A stretch of DNA of 64,000 nt. It comes from Acidimicrobiales bacterium (GTDB taxonomy: Bacteria; Actinomycetota; Acidimicrobiia; Acidimicrobiales; Iamiaceae). Shown here piece by piece: positions 11,261 to 63,525 of this stretch. The DNA lies in assembly GCA_035547835.1 (NCBI GenBank), contig DASZTW010000017.1, positions 124,001 to 188,000 of the forward strand, given 5' to 3'. The notes below the pieces were generated by a model. That model worked only from the letters and a program-made list of their open reading frames with translations. It was not told where the DNA came from and did no database searches. Position numbers and translations under genes: made by a program. Position 1 is the first letter of the stretch. Each line of letters starts with the position of its first letter.

Positions 11261-13053
11261 GCACCGGATCGTTGAGCACCGCACTTCCCCCCTGCCCCGC
11301 TTGCGGCTCCGACCGTGTGCGTCGCGCGTTCCGCCGCCACCACCCGTCGTTCGTGCGCTGCCGCGAGTGCAAGAGCCTCTTCGACCGGGAGCCACCGACT
11401 GCGGGTGAGATGGCCGCGATCTACGAAGGCAGGGACTACTACGTCAAGGCGCCGGCAGCGGCCGGCGGTGAGTCCACGGCAGGCGCCACGAACGGCGAGC
11501 AGCCTTCTCAACACGACGGTCATGTGCACGGCTACTCGTCGGACTACTTGGCCGACCGGGCCTACATCGAGGCCAAGTTCGACCGCGTGCTCGGCCACTT
11601 GGAGCGCTACGTGTCGCCCGGCCGGTTGCTCGACATCGGTGCCGGCCCCGGGTTCCTGCTGGCCGTCGCGAAGCGGCGCGGTTGGGATGCGGTCGGCCTC
11701 GACCTCAACGAGTGGGCCGTGCAGTACGGCCGCGGCGAGCTCGGCGTCGACCTCCGGCTCGGCGCGCTCGGCCCCGACTCGTTCCCCGGGGAGCAGTTCG
11801 ACGCCGTCACGATGATGGATCTGGTGGAGCACGTGCCGTCGTCGGAGGACTTGCTCCGCGACGTGGCGCGCGTCGTTCGGCCCGGCGGTGCGGTGGCGCT
11901 GCTGACACCCGACGCCGGCGCGCGGGTCAGCCGGTCCCTGGGCCACCGCTGGCCCGAGGTGGTCCCCGGCGAGCACGCCGTGCTGTTCTCCGTCGACGGC
12001 CTCGGCCGGGCGCTCGCCCGCCACGGCTTCACGGCGAGCGGCTGGCACACGGTCGGCAAGGAAGCCCCGGTCGCGACGCTGCTCGCCGACGCGGCCCCGG
12101 CCGCGCCGGGCTGGGTGCACCGGGTGCGCGACTTCGTGGCGCATCGCTCCCTCGGCGAGCGGGTGGTCGATGTCGACCCGCACACCAAGTTCTGCTTGTA
12201 CGCCCGTCGCTTGCCAGCCACCACCCGCCCGCCCGAGCACCGGCCGGTGCGGGTCCCGAAACGTCCCGACGAGCTGGCGCACATCGACGAAGCGATCGTC
12301 GACGAGCTCGGCGCCATGGCCGACGCGCCCCGCTTGATCCAGTGGGGCTTCGACGCGTTCGGCGAGTGGGTACCCGGCGCGAAGGTGCTCGAGGTTGGCG
12401 CCGGAATCGGCACGTTCACGTCGATGATGCTCGACGCGGGTGCCATTTCGGTGATCGCGATGGAGCCCGAGCCACGCTGCGCCGACGTGCTCGATCGCAC
12501 CTTCGCCGACGAGCCCCGGGTGACCGTCACCCGTGACGGCCTCCCTGACGCGCCGAGCCTGGCGGGCACCGACGGCACTTTCGACTTGGTGGTGTGCCAC
12601 AACGTGCTGGAGCACATCGCCGACGACCTCGGCGCGCTGCAGGCCATGGCGCGGGCGTTGCGGCCCGGTGGCCGCCTGTCGCTGCTCGTGCCCTCGCAGA
12701 CCGGGCTGTTCGGCCCGCTCGACGATGCCTACGGCCACTGGCGCCGCTACGACCGCGATCAGCTGGCCGGCCTGGTGGCCGACGCCGGCTTCGAGGTCGA
12801 GTCGATCCGGGCCCAGAACACCCTCGGGGTCGCCGGCTGGTGGACCAAGAACCTGCGCCCCGGCGCCCGCATCGGCGCGGCGTCGTTCAAGGCGTACGAG
12901 ATCCTCGTGAAGGCCTGGCGCCCGATGGAAGAGCGACTGCATCCCAGAGCAGGCCTGAGCCTGGTGGTCACCGGCGTGAAACCGCCCGATTCCCCCGCCG
13001 GCGAAGCCGGCGCACCAGCCGGTGAGGCCGGCGCCCCCGCCGACAAAGGCTGA
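11257..13053 (+). CDS. Zinc-ribbon plus tandem SAM-methyltransferase fusion protein
   Basis: A 598-residue protein with two complete class I methyltransferase domains. Residues about 8-45 are a zinc ribbon (CPAC then CREC), typical of the Methyltransf_13/C-methyltransferase style of sugar-modifying enzymes. Domain 1 has LLDIGAGPGFLLAV and VTMMDLVEHVPS; domain 2 has VLEVGAGIGTFTSMML and LVVCHNVLEHI. The C-terminal tail repeats PAGEAGA. The start is TTG 11257, which overlaps the preceding GT2 stop (TTGA); TTG 11272 is an alternative. The context (GT2, desaturase, another zinc-ribbon methyltransferase) points to nucleotide-sugar or glycolipid methylation. Confidence 0.82.
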   Translation: MSTGSLSTALPPCPACGSDRVRRAFRRHHPSFVRCRECKSLFDREPPTAGEMAAIYEGRDYYVKAPAAAGGESTAGATNGEQPSQHDGHVHGYSSDYLADRAYIEAKFDRVLGHLERYVSPGRLLDIGAGPGFLLAVAKRRGWDAVGLDLNEWAVQYGRGELGVDLRLGALGPDSFPGEQFDAVTMMDLVEHVPSSEDLLRDVARVVRPGGAVALLTPDAGARVSRSLGHRWPEVVPGEHAVLFSVDGLGRALARHGFTASGWHTVGKEAPVATLLADAAPAAPGWVHRVRDFVAHRSLGERVVDVDPHTKFCLYARRLPATTRPPEHRPVRVPKRPDELAHIDEAIVDELGAMADAPRLIQWGFDAFGEWVPGAKVLEVGAGIGTFTSMMLDAGAISVIAMEPEPRCADVLDRTFADEPRVTVTRDGLPDAPSLAGTDGTFDLVVCHNVLEHIADDLGALQAMARALRPGGRLSLLVPSQTGLFGPLDDAYGHWRRYDRDQLAGLVADAGFEVESIRAQNTLGVAGWWTKNLRPGARIGAASFKAYEILVKAWRPMEERLHPRAGLSLVVTGVKPPDSPAGEAGAPAGEAGAPADKG

Positions 13054-57546: not shown

Positions 57547-57591
57547 GCTGTGAGCACTTGGCCACCTCCCCGGTGGCCAAGTGCTCACAGC
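57547..57591. repeat. Palindrome family 2, copy D (best preserved)
   Basis: GCTGTGAGCACTTGGCCACC and its exact complement form a 20-bp perfect stem around the loop TCCCC. It lies 37 bases after the small membrane protein gene. Confidence 0.92.
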
Positions 57592-57659
57592 ACCGGGAAT
57601 CACAGCACCGGGAATCACAGCACCGGGAATTACAGCACCGGGAATCACAGCACCGGGAA
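57585..57659. repeat. 15-bp tandem array grown from the palindrome arm
   Basis: Five units of TCACAGCACCGGGAA, one with a T in place of C at its second base, start inside the 3' arm of palindrome copy D. The rest of the 57510-57761 gap shows only a -10 box before the next gene. Confidence 0.92.
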
Positions 57660-57761: not shown

Positions 57762-58163
57762 ATGGATCCGAACCACACCGGTCACCCGCACCCCGGGACA
57801 GGGGCACACGACCGAGACCGTGGCAACCGCCTCGTCCGGCGGGTCACCACCACGTTGGCCCTCGGTGCCGTCGGCGCCACGGCGGCCTTCGCCGGCCTCA
57901 CCGGCCTCGTCACCCAGCACGCTCGAAACCACGCGGCGACCACCGCCACCACCGCGACCACCGCCACCACCTCCTCCACCACGTCGTCCACCGGCTCGAC
58001 GACGAGCTCCACCGAATCGGAGCGTCACGAAGGGTCCGACGACGACGACGGGGCGGCGCGCCAGTCGACCGCTTCGACGACCACGACCACGACCACGCCC
58101 ACGACGACGGCGACGATCACGCCGACCCAACAGGCTCCATCTGTCGTGAGCGGCGGCTCGTGA
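57762..58163 (+). CDS. Thr-rich single-span membrane or secreted protein
   Basis: A 133-residue protein. A His/Asp-rich N-terminus precedes a basic patch and one hydrophobic segment (TLALGAVGATAAFAGLTGLV); the remainder is a Thr/Ser-rich low-complexity tail with an acidic patch (SDDDDG), ending VVSGGS. It has no domain I know. It contains no flavinylation motif of the D-x-x-[ST]-G-A-[ST] type. Its stop overlaps the ApbE ATG, so it belongs to the redox operon, perhaps as a membrane-anchored partner. Confidence 0.65.
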   Translation: MDPNHTGHPHPGTGAHDRDRGNRLVRRVTTTLALGAVGATAAFAGLTGLVTQHARNHAATTATTATTATTSSTTSSTGSTTSSTESERHEGSDDDDGAARQSTASTTTTTTTPTTTATITPTQQAPSVVSGGS

Positions 58164-59176
58164 TGCACGTCGACGGACCAGTCGACGCCAGCGCACGCTG
58201 GTCGGCGATCGGCACGACCGTCCGCGTGCTCGTCGCCGAGCCGGCGTACCTGGCGTCGGCGGCGTACGCCGTGGCGGCCGTCGTCAACGACGTCGACGTC
58301 GCCTGCAGCCGCTTCCGCGCCGACTCCGAGCTCATGCGCCTGTGTCGCGCCGGGGTGGCCACCGAGGTCTCGCCGCTCCTGGCGCAGGCAATCGAGGCGG
58401 CGCTCGACGCCGCCAAGCAGACCGACGGGGCGGTCGACCCCACCGGCGGTGCATCCATCCGTGCGCTCGGCTACGACCGCTCGTTCGACGACCTCGGCGG
58501 CACGAGTCGCACGCACGCCGCGTCCCTCAGCGCCGGACCGTACGACCCTCCCGGTCCCGCCTTCGCCGGGTGGGAGCTGGTCCGGCTCGACCCGCGCACC
58601 CGCACCGTCTGCATGCCGCGAGGCGTCGAGCTCGACCTCGGCGCGACGGCCAAGGGCCTCGCCGCCGACCTGGCAGCGCATGCCGCGGCCGGCGCGGCCG
58701 ATGGCACCGGCGTCCTCGTGTCGCTCGGGGGCGACCTGTCGGTTGCCGGCGCTACGCCATCGGGCGGCTGGGCGGTCAAAGTCGCCGACGACCACCGCGC
58801 ACCGCTCGACACGACCGGCCCGACCATCGCCGTCCACTCCGGCGGCCTGGCCACGTCGAGCACCACCGTCCGGCGTTGGACGCGCGGCGAAACAACCGCG
58901 CACCACGTGCTCGACCCCGCCACCGGACGCTCGACCACGGGCCCGTGGCGGACCGTGACCGCCGCAGCGGCGAGTTGCCTCGAGGCCAACGTGGCCACCA
59001 CGGCCGCCATCGTCATGGGTGCCGCTGCACCCGCGTGGCTCGAAGCCCACCACATCCCCGCCCGCCTCGTGGGCGCCGACGGCCAAGTCGTGCTCGTGGG
59101 CGGCTGGCCCGCTGATGAGCAACCGGTCGAACCTGCGCCGGTCGGCCCGGCAACGGTGGAAGGGTCGCCACGATGA
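58163..59176 (+). CDS. apbE: FAD:protein FMN transferase
   Basis: A 337-residue ApbE-family enzyme that attaches FMN to a Thr/Ser of partner proteins, using FAD and Mg2+. SRFRADSELMRL, QTDGAVDPTGGASIRALGYD, GVELDLGATAKGLAADL (FAD/Mg site), GVLVSLGGDLSVAG and HHVLDPATGRSTTGPW are family blocks. No signal peptide is obvious, so it may act in the cytoplasm. The ATG overlaps the previous stop (TGATG) and its own stop overlaps the next ATG (ATGA). No target with a flavinylation motif lies next to it. Confidence 0.92.
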   Translation: MHVDGPVDASARWSAIGTTVRVLVAEPAYLASAAYAVAAVVNDVDVACSRFRADSELMRLCRAGVATEVSPLLAQAIEAALDAAKQTDGAVDPTGGASIRALGYDRSFDDLGGTSRTHAASLSAGPYDPPGPAFAGWELVRLDPRTRTVCMPRGVELDLGATAKGLAADLAAHAAAGAADGTGVLVSLGGDLSVAGATPSGGWAVKVADDHRAPLDTTGPTIAVHSGGLATSSTTVRRWTRGETTAHHVLDPATGRSTTGPWRTVTAAAASCLEANVATTAAIVMGAAAPAWLEAHHIPARLVGADGQVVLVGGWPADEQPVEPAPVGPATVEGSPR

Positions 59177-59763
59177 CCGCAGCCATCGGCGGCCAGGCCA
59201 TGTGGTTCCTCGTCAGAGGCTCAGGGATCGTGTCGCTGCTCTTGTTGACCGCCGGAACCGCCCTCGGCATCCTCACCTCGCAGCGCTGGTCGCTCACCCG
59301 CCGCATCCCTCGATTCGTGGTCGGCGACTTGCACCGCAACCTGTCGATGCTCGCGGTCGCGTTCGTGGCGTTGCACGTCGTCACCACGATCGTCGACGGG
59401 TTCGTGCCGATCCGCTGGATCTCCGCCGTCATCCCCTTCACCTCGTGGTACCGGGGCTGGTGGCTCGGCCTCGGCGCACTGGCAAGCGACCTCTTCCTGG
59501 CCGCGGCGATCACCAGCGCGTTTCGCCGCCGCCCGCCCTATCGGGCCTGGCGGACCATCCACCTGGCCGCCTATGCCTCATGGCCGATCGCCGTGGCGCA
59601 CTCGCTCGGCACCGGAACCGATCGCGGTGAGGGCTGGATGCTCATGCTGGTCGCGCTCTGCATGGCCCTGATCGCCGGCTTGGCCGCCTGGAGGGCGTTC
59701 GACCGCTTGCGACCGCTCCGCACTCGGCCTCCCGCCGGCTCGCTGGGGACACAGGCAAGGTGA
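59173..59763 (+). CDS. Ferric-reductase-like transmembrane cytochrome
   Basis: A 196-residue membrane protein with about five to six helices (GIVSLLLLTAGTALGIL; LSMLAVAFVALHVVTTIVDG; LGLGALASDLFLAAAIT; WRTIHLAAYASWPIAVAHSLG). His residues at DLHRNL, LHV, IHLA and AHSLG are placed to bind two haems b, as in ferric-reductase-like and MsrQ proteins. No FAD/NAD domain is attached, so electrons must come from a partner, probably the NuoF-like protein. The ATG overlaps apbE. Confidence 0.88.
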   Translation: MTAAIGGQAMWFLVRGSGIVSLLLLTAGTALGILTSQRWSLTRRIPRFVVGDLHRNLSMLAVAFVALHVVTTIVDGFVPIRWISAVIPFTSWYRGWWLGLGALASDLFLAAAITSAFRRRPPYRAWRTIHLAAYASWPIAVAHSLGTGTDRGEGWMLMLVALCMALIAGLAAWRAFDRLRPLRTRPPAGSLGTQAR

Positions 59764-59773
59764 CACGAGCCCG

Positions 59774-61087
59774 ATGACGTCCACCGCGATCGACTTCCCC
59801 TCCGTGCACCGACCCTCGTCGGCCACCGCAGCATCGGGGCACCTGCCCCGGCTCTTCGCACCGATGTCCGGCCCGGCCCACCATCACGCCAGCCATCTGG
59901 CCCGCTTCGGCCCGCTGCCCGACGGCTACCACCGACTCGGGCATGGCCTCATCGAGGAGGTGCGGCGCGCCGGCCTGCTGGGGCGCGGCGGTGCGGCCTT
60001 TCCAGTCGCCACGAAACTCGACGCGGTGGCGGGACGGCGCAACGGGGTGGTGGTCGTGAACGCCACCGACGGCGAGCCGGCGAGTCGCAAGGACGCGGTG
60101 CTCGCCAGGGTCGCGCCACATCTGGTGATCGACGGTGCCGTCTTGGCGGCCGGAGCCATCGGCGCACTCGACGTGTTCGTGTGTGTCGACCGACTCGACG
60201 GCGACACCCTGCGCTCGCTACAAGCGGCCGCGGCCGACCGGCCGTCGTTCGAACCGCCGACCCGCGTGCTGGCGGCACCGGCCCGATACGTGGTCGGGGA
60301 AGCGACCGCGCTCGCTCGCTGGGTCGGCGGCGGCGAGGCGCGACCCGTCTTCGGTGTCCGTCCCGACCAGCGGGGGTCCTGGGGTCGTCCGACGTTGGTC
60401 CACAACGCCGAGACCCTGGCGCACCTCGCGCTGATCGCGCGCCACGGCGCAGATTGGTTCCGCGCGATGGGGACCGCGGCCGAGCCCGGCTCCACGCTGG
60501 TCACGTTCGTGGGCGACATCGAACGCCCCGGCGTCATGGAAGTGGCCATGGGGAGCGACTTGCGCAGCCTCGTCGACGAGGCCACGCCCACCGCGCGGCC
60601 CACGGCGTTGCTGCTCGGCGGCTACGGCGGCACATGGGTGCACGCAACGACGGCCGCAGAGCTCCGTTGGTGCGACCATTCCTTGCGCACCGCCGGCGCG
60701 TCGGCTGGCGCAGGCGTGGTGGCCGTTCTGGGAACCCACCGCTGCGGCCTCGCCGAGACGGCCGGTCTGGCTCGCTGGTTCGCCGGGGAGTCTGCGGGCC
60801 AGTGCGGGCCCTGTCGCTTTGGTCTGCCCGCCATCGCCGACGTGCTCGAGACCCTGGCGGCCGGTCGTGCCCAGCCCGGCGACGTCGCGCAGCTCCACCG
60901 ATGGCTCGCTGATGTCGACAGGCGGGGCGCGTGCGCCCACCCGGACCTCGCGGTCCGCCTGGTGCGCAGCGCGCTCACCACCTTCGGAGAGGACATCGCG
61001 TCCCACCTGCAGGGTCGACCGTGCGCCGGCGCGGGCCTCCCACCGATGCTGCCCGTGCCCGACTTGGGAGGTGAACCGTGGCGTTGA
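59774..61087 (+). CDS. NuoF-like flavoprotein (SLBB and Fe-S region)
   Basis: A 437-residue relative of NADH dehydrogenase subunit F. GLLGRGGAAFPVATK is the FMN-binding motif, VNATDGEPASRKD the conserved GxxGEP-like turn, and TFVGDIERPGVMEV an SLBB-type strand. The C-terminal cluster region reads GESAGQCGPCRFG then RRGACAHPD: three Cys are clear, while the first Cys of the NuoF pattern (ESCG) is Ala. It probably moves electrons between NAD(P)H or ferredoxin and the cytochrome. The last ten bases overlap the ferredoxin gene. Confidence 0.87.
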   Translation: MTSTAIDFPSVHRPSSATAASGHLPRLFAPMSGPAHHHASHLARFGPLPDGYHRLGHGLIEEVRRAGLLGRGGAAFPVATKLDAVAGRRNGVVVVNATDGEPASRKDAVLARVAPHLVIDGAVLAAGAIGALDVFVCVDRLDGDTLRSLQAAAADRPSFEPPTRVLAAPARYVVGEATALARWVGGGEARPVFGVRPDQRGSWGRPTLVHNAETLAHLALIARHGADWFRAMGTAAEPGSTLVTFVGDIERPGVMEVAMGSDLRSLVDEATPTARPTALLLGGYGGTWVHATTAAELRWCDHSLRTAGASAGAGVVAVLGTHRCGLAETAGLARWFAGESAGQCGPCRFGLPAIADVLETLAAGRAQPGDVAQLHRWLADVDRRGACAHPDLAVRLVRSALTTFGEDIASHLQGRPCAGAGLPPMLPVPDLGGEPWR

Positions 61088-61302
61088 CCCGGCGGGCCGG
61101 ACTCGAGTTGGTCGTCGACCCGATCCTGTGCGACGGCGCGGGGATGTGCGCCGAATTGCTCCCCGAGCACATTCGGCTCGACGACTGGGGCTTTCCGATC
61201 GTGCACACGCCCGAAGTGCCGCTCGCCAACCGTGGGGCAGCAAGGCGGGCCTGCCGGGCCTGCCCGAAGCTCGCGCTCCGGTTGCAGGGAACGCTCCGCT
61301 GA
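61078..61302 (+). CDS. Small single-cluster ferredoxin
   Basis: A 74-residue ferredoxin of the P450-partner type: ILCDGAGMCAELLPEH, DDWGFPIV, then RRACRACPKLALRL. Cys occur at about 18, 24, 59 and 62. The central Cys of CxxCxxC is Ala (GAGMC), so the cluster may be 3Fe-4S, unless Cys 59 also binds. GTG 61078 has GGGAGG upstream and overlaps the NuoF-like stop. It is the likely one-electron carrier of the operon. Confidence 0.88.
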   Translation: MALTRRAGLELVVDPILCDGAGMCAELLPEHIRLDDWGFPIVHTPEVPLANRGAARRACRACPKLALRLQGTLR

Positions 61303-61382
61303 CCGACCTCGTGCCTGCCGGGCCCTGTGGCTCGACGGCCTCTGCACGCACGGCCGGTGGCTTGATCGGTCATGCTGTCGAC

Positions 61383-62090
61383 GTGCGGCTGCTGCTGATC
61401 GAAGACGACCGCGGCATCGCGGAACCGCTGGTCGAGGGCCTGCATGCCCACGGCTACGAAGTGGGCTGGGTGACCACAGGCGGCGAGGCGCTCGAGGACC
61501 AAGGCGGTGGTCTGGTGCTGCTCGATCTCGGTCTCCCCGACCTCGACGGCACCGAGGTGTGCCGGCGCCTGCGAGCCAGGGACGCAAACCGTCCCATCAT
61601 CGTGATCACCGCGCGGGGCGAGGAAGACGATCGGGTCCGCGGTCTCGACGCCGGCGCGGACGACTATCTCGTCAAGCCGTTCGGGTTCCGCGAGCTCACC
61701 GCCCGGATCCGTGCCGTGACCCGCCGCGTGGGTGGCGACAACGCTGGCGAGGACGTGCGCGTGCAGCAGCTCGGACGGCTGGTGGTCGACCGGTCGGCGC
61801 ACCGGGTGCTCGTCGACGGCCGAGAAGTGGCCCTCACACCGAAGGAGCTCCAACTGCTCGCGGCACTCGCCGAGCGTCCCGGCAGGGTCGTGAACCGTCA
61901 CGTCGTGTTCGAGCGCGTGTGGGGCCCGCACTTCTACGGCCCGACCAAGACGCTCGACGTCCACGTCGCCTCGCTGCGCCGCAAGCTCGGCCACCCCGAA
62001 TGGATCGAGACGATCCGCAACGTCGGGCTCCGGCTGGGCGACACCGGGACCGACGGCGCGCCGGACCACGCGCCGTCGCCGCGCGACTAG
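61383..62090 (+). CDS. OmpR-family response regulator
   Basis: A 235-residue two-domain regulator. The receiver begins RLLLIEDDRG, has the phospho-Asp in LLDLGLPD (about residue 48), VITARGEED and DYLVKPFG. The winged helix (ALTPKELQLLAALAERPGRVVNRHVVFERVWG, KTLDVHVASLRRKLG) follows. GTG 61383 matches the family start but has no ribosome site. It is 80 bases after the ferredoxin gene and eight bases before the kinase. It probably controls the redox operon or a related response. Confidence 0.92.
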   Translation: MRLLLIEDDRGIAEPLVEGLHAHGYEVGWVTTGGEALEDQGGGLVLLDLGLPDLDGTEVCRRLRARDANRPIIVITARGEEDDRVRGLDAGADDYLVKPFGFRELTARIRAVTRRVGGDNAGEDVRVQQLGRLVVDRSAHRVLVDGREVALTPKELQLLAALAERPGRVVNRHVVFERVWGPHFYGPTKTLDVHVASLRRKLGHPEWIETIRNVGLRLGDTGTDGAPDHAPSPRD

Positions 62091-62097
62091 GTCCGCC

Positions 62098-63525
62098 GTG
62101 CGGCGCCGGTTGCTCGCCTCCTATCTGGTCTTGGCGCTGGTGGTGCTCGTGGCCCTCGAAGTCCCCCTCGGGGTCGTGGGCACGCGCCGTGAGCGCGACG
62201 GGGTGCGCGCCAATGCCGAGCGCGACGCCACGGTGCTCGCCGCGCTGTCGTACCTGGCCGTCGACCCCGACCACGACCGGCCCCACGGCGCGGACAGCGA
62301 CCACCAGCGCGAGGTCACCGACCTCAACGACCTCACCCGCCGGTACGTGACCGGATCGCGCGTCGAGGTGCTCGTGGTCGACGCCAACCGCAACGTGATC
62401 GCCTACCAGTCCCACAACGGTGAAACGCGACCCGACACCCGCCAGGACCTGAGCCCGCTGCTCGGACAGGCCCTCGAAGGCAACGCAGCCGTCGCGGCTG
62501 GCACGACCGAGGGCGAAGCGACCGAAGTGGCCGCCCAACCGATCACCAACCCCGGTGGGCAGGTGGTGGGCGCCGTGCAGGTGACGGTGTCGGCCCAAGC
62601 CGCGCAACACCGGGCCCTCGAGCTGGTCTGGGCGCTCATCGGCTTCGCCGCGCTCGTGCTGGCGGTCGCCGCTGCGGTCGGTGTGCTGATGGCCCGATCC
62701 GTGGCTCGCCCGTTGGCGAGCTTGGAGACGGCCGTTCGCTCGCTCGAGAGCGGCGACCTCGACGTGCGCGCCCGGCCCGGAGGCCCGAAGGAGATCCGGA
62801 CGGTGGCGGTCGCGTTCAACAGCATGGCCGACCGTCTGCGCGAGCTGATCAACAGCCAACGCAACTTCTTGGCCGACGCGTCGCACCAGCTGCGCTCCCC
62901 CCTCACCGCGCTGCGACTCCGGCTCGAAGCCATCAACCCGGACGACCGCGAAGGCACCCGGCGGCATCTGGCCGGCGCGGTCGGTGAGGTCGAGCGACTC
63001 TCGCGGCTGACCGAAGGTCTGTTGGCGCTCATGCGGGTCGAGGGCAGACGTCCATCCCGCAAGCAGGTCGCGGTCGGCGACATCGTCCGCGAGCGCGCGG
63101 CGATCTGGGAAGCCTTCGCCGACGAGCGCGAGGTCCACTTGCGCGTCGACCTCCCCGCCGAGCCGCTCCTCGCCCTCGACGTCGAGGGCCACCTCGAGCA
63201 GGCGCTCGACAACTTGCTGGCCAACGCACTCCAGGTCGCGCCCGCTGGCTCGGAGATCTCGCTGGCGGCCCAGTCGACCGTTGACGGTGACCGTTCCCTG
63301 GTCGAGGTGACGGTGACCGACGAGGGCCCGGGCATGACCCCCGAGGAGCGCGCTTCGGCGTTCGAGCGCTTCTGGCAGCACCACGACAACCGCACCGGCC
63401 GCACCGGACTCGGTCTCACGATCTCACGGCAGCTGTCGCGGGCCAGCGGCGGCGACCTGTTGCTCGACGACGCGCCCGGGGGCGGCTTGCGCGCGACCGT
63501 GCAGCTCGAGGCGGCCTCGGCCTGA
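62098..63525 (+). CDS. Membrane sensor histidine kinase
   Basis: A 475-residue kinase. Two membrane segments (SYLVLALVVLVALEVPLGVV; LVWALIGFAALVLAVAAAVGVL) flank an outer sensor of about 140 residues. HAMP (ARPLASLETAVRSLESGDLDV), HisKA with phospho-His 263 (DASHQLRSPLTAL), N box (LDNLLANALQVAP), G1 (VTDEGPGM) and G2 (GRTGLGLTIS) follow. GTG 62098 is eight bases after the regulator stop. The signal is unknown. Confidence 0.93.
   Translation: MRRRLLASYLVLALVVLVALEVPLGVVGTRRERDGVRANAERDATVLAALSYLAVDPDHDRPHGADSDHQREVTDLNDLTRRYVTGSRVEVLVVDANRNVIAYQSHNGETRPDTRQDLSPLLGQALEGNAAVAAGTTEGEATEVAAQPITNPGGQVVGAVQVTVSAQAAQHRALELVWALIGFAALVLAVAAAVGVLMARSVARPLASLETAVRSLESGDLDVRARPGGPKEIRTVAVAFNSMADRLRELINSQRNFLADASHQLRSPLTALRLRLEAINPDDREGTRRHLAGAVGEVERLSRLTEGLLALMRVEGRRPSRKQVAVGDIVRERAAIWEAFADEREVHLRVDLPAEPLLALDVEGHLEQALDNLLANALQVAPAGSEISLAAQSTVDGDRSLVEVTVTDEGPGMTPEERASAFERFWQHHDNRTGRTGLGLTISRQLSRASGGDLLLDDAPGGGLRATVQLEAASA

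Follow-up and report, generated by a model that had tools for sequence, protein, structure and literature searches.

A stretch of 64,000 nucleotides from an Acidimicrobiales bacterium of the Iamiaceae (assembly GCA_035547835.1, contig DASZTW010000017.1, positions 124,001 to 188,000; this whole stretch is called the window, and its own numbering is used) was found to carry a cluster of seven genes, all on the forward strand, that encodes the flavin transferase ApbE, a membrane cytochrome, two further electron carriers and a small Thr-rich protein, referred to here as the tail protein. The initial annotation of the window had listed a Thr-rich protein, ApbE, a cytochrome, a NuoF-like protein, a ferredoxin, a response regulator and a kinase. 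Analysis of the open reading frames and their Pfam domains found all seven where it had placed them, with Pfam confirming six. The features are as follows (FMN, flavin mononucleotide; FAD, flavin adenine dinucleotide; NADH, reduced nicotinamide adenine dinucleotide).

57585-57659, no strand assigned: five 15-bp tandem repeats (TCACAGCACCGGGAA) 5' of the tail gene, seen in the sequence; possible regulatory site.
57762-58163, forward strand: tail protein (Thr-rich), 133 amino acids, defined from sequence, without Pfam or NCBIfam family; predicted FMN acceptor.
58140-58160, forward strand: codons of the C-terminal acceptor-like motif SVVSGGS, seen in the sequence, with [ST]x[GA][ST]-stop kept in relatives; FMN predicted on Ser133.
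58163-59176, forward strand: ApbE FAD:protein FMN transferase, 337 amino acids (PF02424, E 8e-45), without signal peptide.
59173-59763, forward strand: MsrQ/ferric-reductase-like two-haem membrane cytochrome, 196 amino acids (PF01794, Ferric_reduct, E 4e-8).
59774-61087, forward strand: NuoF-like NADH/FMN protein, 437 amino acids (PF01512, Complex1_51K, and PF10589, NADH_4Fe-4S).
61078-61302, forward strand: ferredoxin, 74 amino acids, with three conserved Cys in a 3Fe-4S pattern (PF13459, Fer4_15).
About 61383-62090 (start codon uncertain), forward strand: OmpR-type response regulator (PF00072, PF00486).
62098-63525, forward strand: sensor histidine kinase with HAMP and HisKA domains (PF00672, PF00512, PF02518).

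The first five genes overlap by 1, 4 and 10 nucleotides, with a single gap of 10 nucleotides. Clusters of the ApbE/cytochrome/NuoF type are already known; the tail-type acceptor appears to be new.

The genome (3.7 Mb, 96.7% complete) encodes a single ApbE, and a domain search of this genome found zero FMN_bind, DUF2271, DUF3570, NqrB/RnfD and Flavodoxin_4 domains, including the FMN_bind proteins for which the initial annotation had proposed a genome-wide check. Among 118 genomes of the order, ApbE was present in 66 and FMN_bind in 28, and the FMN_bind matches adjoin ApbEs. A tail with the motif described below adjoins apbE in 29 of the 38 order genomes that have apbE without FMN_bind. No FMN_bind-like motif was found near apbE in any of 80 loci from named genomes (the named set, found with an ApbE alignment and chosen by ApbE similarity), and a search for the canonical acceptor motif in 26 relatives returned one match only, inside an unrelated open reading frame of 553 residues. 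The presence of an FMN_bind gene in the gap between the cytochrome and NuoF genes of relatives was ruled out, the gap being a C-terminal extension of the cytochrome.

The tail protein ends in SVVSGGS-stop, a relaxed form of the ApbE acceptor motif D-x-x-[ST]-G-A-[ST]. The initial annotation had overlooked this ending when it stated that the operon held no flavinylation motif. Its view that the ApbE target is elsewhere or atypical holds as regards an atypical target; with the relaxed motif at the extreme C terminus of the Thr-rich protein, there is no need to place the target elsewhere. The suggestion that the Thr-rich protein is a candidate partner is supported by this motif, whose position is conserved in relatives.

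Candidate tails were collected by a rule blind to the motif, which asked for an open reading frame with its end just 5' of apbE whose product has a hydrophobic helix and, after it, a tail with abundant S, T, P, A, G, Q, N and V. Such a candidate was found immediately 5' of apbE in 64 of the 80 named loci. The exact ending [ST]x[GA][ST]-stop was present in 54 of these 64 tails compared to 2.9 (maximum 9) by shuffling, and the strict form [ST]G[GA][ST] stood exactly at the stop in 41 compared to 0.4. In the tails from the order, [ST]x[GA][ST] was found no more than six residues from the end in 41 of 55, compared to a mean of 8.5 (maximum 19) when the last 40 residues were shuffled in 2000 trials, and the strict form in 22 compared to 0.84. 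The order and named sets share some contigs and their sequences are related, so that the shuffles overstate independence. When the same rule was applied elsewhere in the named loci, the motif was found in 8 of 285 cases, and at least one of these (L137) is a tail too, with a different gene order around it.

Of the 54 motif tails, 52 end in Ser and 2 in Thr. Ser or Thr at position -4 follows from the motif definition; position -3 is Gly in 41, and position -7 is mostly His, Gln or Pro instead of Asp. The strict motif D-x-x-[ST]-G-A-[ST] is absent from the window tail and was found in 3 of the 64 named tails, all three from Streptomyces and ending in the full canonical DSTSGAS. Tails encoded on plasmids, checked after the rule had been fixed, end in TRAS-stop in three cases out of three. 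In a random sample of the phylum, the loose motif was present in 18 of 23 candidates and the exact end in 8. The tails of loci L208, L209, L211, L212, L214 and L217, from additional genomes of the phylum, end in STGGS-stop or in TTGGS followed by two to five residues, which suggests a further subclass.

The basic N terminus of the window tail leads into a single hydrophobic helix and then a Thr/Ser-rich stretch that includes an Asp patch; the protein ends in PTQQAPSVVSGGS-stop. AlphaFold2 predicted a helix at residues 14-49 and, for the remainder, coil with a low predicted local distance difference test score that rises slightly at residues 121-130. None of 42 tails scanned matched a Pfam or NCBIfam family. 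Across 98 tails, the net charge was +3.9 in the 15 residues before the helix and -0.4 after it, and this N-in sign was found in 96 of the 98. By the charge rule, the arm is predicted to lie outside the membrane. Its median length in the same tails was 73 residues, with 4.6% large hydrophobic residues and no Cys. Twin arginines stand directly before the helix in 69 of the 98 tails, with a weak consensus for twin-arginine translocation (Tat). Tat export following cytosolic flavinylation would fit an ApbE that lacks a signal peptide.

The assignment of ApbE rests on the Pfam match listed above and on ApbE relatives in the PDB with E values down to 2e-44. The catalytic triad of Vibrio cholerae ApbE is Ser241-His257-Asp285 (PMC12052999), and the window ApbE has the equivalents Ser232-His248-Asn276 at identical spacing. 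Ser and His were retained in all 104 NuoF-type ApbEs. The third residue was Asn in all 104 of these, Asp in the FMN_bind (9/9) and PepSY (6/6) groups, and Glu in other tail clades (8/8 and 34/36), a sequence pattern that marks the tail-linked ApbEs as a putative functional group of their own. As a marker of exactly terminal acceptors, the change from Asp to Asn was not clean, the Glu clades having both terminal and near-terminal sites. In a tree of 80 ApbEs of the order, those linked to FMN_bind formed one side of a branch (support 100/98). A third ApbE group (L059, L068, L083-L085 and L089) has neither tail nor FMN_bind; four of its members are convergent with a neighbouring PepSY_TM_like_2 gene. 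The distance from the tail stop to the conserved ApbE core has a median of 36 nucleotides, which leaves no space for a signal peptide.

The window cytochrome matched PF01794 above the cut-off and is devoid of a flavin/NAD domain. Its haem ligands His54, His68, His130 and His143 were invariant in 85 sequences. The predicted structure of a longer relative resembles the fold of cytochrome b561/STEAP/NOX, with no strong Foldseek E value. The NuoF-like protein matched PF01512 and PF10589 above the cut-offs, had its best PDB match in 2fug chain 1 (E 2e-79) and keeps the FMN and NADH motifs. The first Cys of its N3 cluster is replaced by Ala341 (Ala, Ser or Thr in 82 of 82 sequences), and the remaining ligands C344, C347 and C387 are kept. 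In the ferredoxin, only C18, C24 and C62 are conserved among 24 sequences and the middle ligand is missing; the 3Fe-4S assignment follows from this sequence pattern. An extra C-terminal domain, absent from the window protein, was observed after a Pro/Ser linker in the cytochromes of L032, L033, L036, L039-L041, L043, L044, L046, L050 and L051. In L046 it is predicted to consist of eight beta strands and resembles only common barrel enzymes. A domain of this kind might serve as a docking site for the tail flavin.

ApbE, cytochrome, NuoF-like protein and ferredoxin were found together in 52 of the 80 named loci, including those of Streptomyces, Nocardia, Amycolatopsis, Frankia, Gordonia and Arthrobacter, and also in metagenome-assembled genomes labelled Solirubrobacterales, Dormibacterota and Chloroflexi. 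The same four genes are grouped, with regulators nearby, in most relatives within the order, and complete five-gene copies in the gene order of the window are present on three conjugative Arthrobacter plasmids (L198, NZ_CP014572.1; L199/L201, NZ_CP084557.1; L200, CP017422.1). The comparison across actinobacteria that had been proposed with the initial annotation thus shows a conserved gene set, and this conservation far exceeds chance. Relatives of the NuoF-like protein split sharply, the family scoring 240-370 bits and the next matches less than 170 bits. In Streptomycetaceae and Nocardia seriolae, the regulator adjacent to the module matches the window regulator at 177-197 bits. The plasmid tail gene is unannotated on two of the Arthrobacter plasmids and labelled hypothetical on the third; one of these plasmids carries a VIT-family protein, an Nramp transporter and a multicopper oxidase no more than 15 kb from the module. 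Among the loci compared, no further conserved gene from which the final acceptor could be recognised was found besides ApbE, cytochrome, NuoF, ferredoxin and two-component genes, with the exception of one membrane-protein family present in 8 loci.

Several neighbouring elements were also observed. In the window, a 17-bp inverted repeat (57550-57588) precedes the five 15-bp repeats just 5' of the tail gene, and the repeats at 57550-57659 may be a terminator or a site to which a regulator binds. At L054, L055, L069, L082, L088, L094, L096 and L099, the tail gene is preceded by a gene for another small protein, whose C terminus is Asp-rich (..DDDD) and which possibly binds metal. At L039, a multi-helix membrane protein of 233 residues with no Pfam match (12101-12802, reverse strand) adjoins the tail gene and likewise has an acceptor-like ending, ALSGAS-stop.

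The findings point to a transmembrane electron line formed by the five genes, in which the outer carrier would be a new kind of ApbE substrate with FMN on Ser133 of the tail, a reading to which we assign a probability of roughly 0.8. Flavinylation, topology, electron direction, acceptor and the timing of ApbE action relative to export are all predictions made from the sequence. Cytosolic ApbE would move FMN from FAD onto the hydroxyl of Ser133, the last residue of a tail that is predicted to consist of a one-helix anchor and an unfolded arm, roughly 80 residues long and of Ser/Thr/Pro/Ala composition, without a flavin-binding domain. Once exported, the arm would be a flexible tether that holds FMN on the outer side of the membrane. 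The FMN and cluster of the NuoF-like protein would take electrons from NADH and hand them to the 3Fe-4S ferredoxin and then to the two-haem cytochrome, whose haems would pass them across the membrane and so reduce the tethered FMN. The tethered flavin would in turn reduce an electron acceptor on the outside; ferric iron, a different metal or a quinone may fill this role. A metal acceptor such as ferric iron is weakly favoured by the metal-gene neighbours on one plasmid and by the reported VIT1 association (PMC8238504). Of the route from NAD(P)H to the outside that the initial annotation had drawn, the transmembrane module with its own ApbE stands; its direction is one that we infer, and the outer acceptor would be the tail and not a further FMN_bind protein. 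It is doubtful whether the scheme extends to a phylum-wide class of flavoproteins that lack a flavin-binding domain altogether and act as swinging-arm surface carriers, in which FMN sits on a chain-terminal Ser of a disordered arm and the free carboxylate replaces the ApbE Asp lost to Asn by substrate assistance. That a C-terminal carboxylate beside the acceptor hydroxyl stands in for the missing Asp is speculation.

MsrQ-like flavinylation clusters were described by Meheust et al. in 2021 as mostly actinobacterial, 31 of them with a NuoF-like protein, and their flavinylated part was said to be typically FMN_bind (PMC8238504). The PF01794 cytochrome, ApbE and the NuoF-like subunit are common to those clusters (PMC8238504) and the present one; in contrast to their FMN_bind acceptor, the candidate here is a domainless C-terminal tail and FMN_bind is absent. 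That survey removed genes without a predicted signal peptide (PMC8238504), which may explain why tail-linked ApbEs went unpursued in it. The DUF2271 and DUF3570 substrates resemble the tail in adjoining apbE without an FMN_bind partner and in having an acceptor [ST]GA[ST] whose Ser can be modified, but these domains are some 135 and 420 residues long (PMC8238504), whereas the tail is domainless and would accept FMN on its last residue. Huang et al. in 2024 added Flavodoxin_4 and FMN_red as ApbE substrates (PMC11334425). The acceptor sites of FMN_red substrates lie, like that of the tail, on an unstructured C-terminal extension; those substrates have a flavin-binding fold onto which the extension folds back (PMC11334425), whereas the tails have none. 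In the Flavin-tag of Tong et al. (2021), as described in PMC12052999, a short terminal motif suffices for FMN attachment by ApbE, as proposed here for the tail; that tag is an engineered label, whereas the tail would use the same principle naturally and widely. According to a 2025 review, the seven-residue motif is sufficient, termini are the best sites, replacement of the motif Asp by Ala has a minor effect and Thr is a better acceptor than Ser (PMC12052999). No prior description of such tails was found in the literature covered, which left out most subscription journals, and an earlier report is possible.

Several observations weigh against the tail as FMN acceptor. The canonical Asp is missing from the window tail and nearly all others, and the residue preceding the acceptor is often Gly where the canonical motif has Ala. 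No candidate was found under the fixed rule in 16 of the 80 named loci, the tails of L032, L033 and L035 end in SSSSF, SAVS and SSGDS, and exact ends were few in the phylum sample. The order and named sets are mutually dependent through shared contigs and selection by ApbE similarity. Transferase activity cannot be assumed, since the third triad residue is Asn. With ApbE cytosolic and the tail predicted outside, flavinylation before export or by another route has to be assumed. In the tails of L048, L049, L062, L064, L071, L087 and L189, which share the same build, Cys-pair ends (for example CGSKPC, CQTSKC and CYTSPSGNVTCY) replace the Ser motif; these tails perhaps have a dithiol end instead of, or beside, flavin.

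Inward electron flow, with an external donor oxidised via the tail flavin and ferredoxin or NAD reduced, is a minor but real possibility: the carriers are reversible in principle and the cluster has no conserved terminal acceptor gene, whereas for flavinylated MsrQ-like and related systems that have been characterised, the accepted view is a flow from NAD(P)H to the outside (PMC8238504). It is quite unlikely that the true ApbE substrate is an unlinked protein with an unrecognised motif and that the tail only serves to anchor, chaperone or dock ApbE or the cytochrome. The tail does lack the canonical motif, the substrates known for ApbE possess domains that are folded or lie in the membrane (PMC8238504, PMC11334425), and in a genome 96.7% complete an FMN_bind gene was possibly missed. 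Such a substrate would, however, leave unexplained why 54 of 64 tails have [ST]x[GA][ST] directly before the stop when hardly anything else in the arm is conserved, why three tails have the canonical ending, and why FMN_bind-like motifs are absent around all 80 loci. That the ApbE-like proteins are FAD pyrophosphatases or flavin-binding subunits, with the tail end as a docking peptide, we consider very unlikely. Asn occupies the position of the triad Asp in 104 of 104, and at least one ApbE relative is reported to hydrolyse FAD (PMC4767422); but Ser232 and His248 are fully kept, and the supposed docking peptide resembles the transferase acceptor motif, exactly so in three species. Hardly credible is an origin of the conserved end as a by-product of DNA, with Gly-Gly or Gly-Ala codons serving as the apbE Shine-Dalgarno sequence and the last codon set by the ATGA/GTGA overlap: in many loci the tail stop does overlap the start of apbE or lie shortly before it, and TCG or TCA is a frequent last codon ahead of TGA, but codon analysis largely refuted this origin, with Shine-Dalgarno-like strings at the motif in only 10 of 54, Gly codons that match the tail background, many codons (TCC, AGC and AGT among them) for Ser/Thr at -4 and Ser at -1, and the motif tail of L137 preceding the cytochrome gene and not apbE. 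The mixed codons and the rarity of such strings indicate that selection acts on the amino acids.

If the tail is indeed the FMN acceptor, it would provide a substrate for many of the ApbEs that have no known target, which were retained in 670 genomes in the 2021 survey (PMC8238504). Covalent flavoproteins would then be predicted in Streptomyces, Nocardia and other actinobacteria, encoded by genes that match no curated family, and a flavin cofactor could function with no binding fold around it, held by nothing more than a flexible tether.

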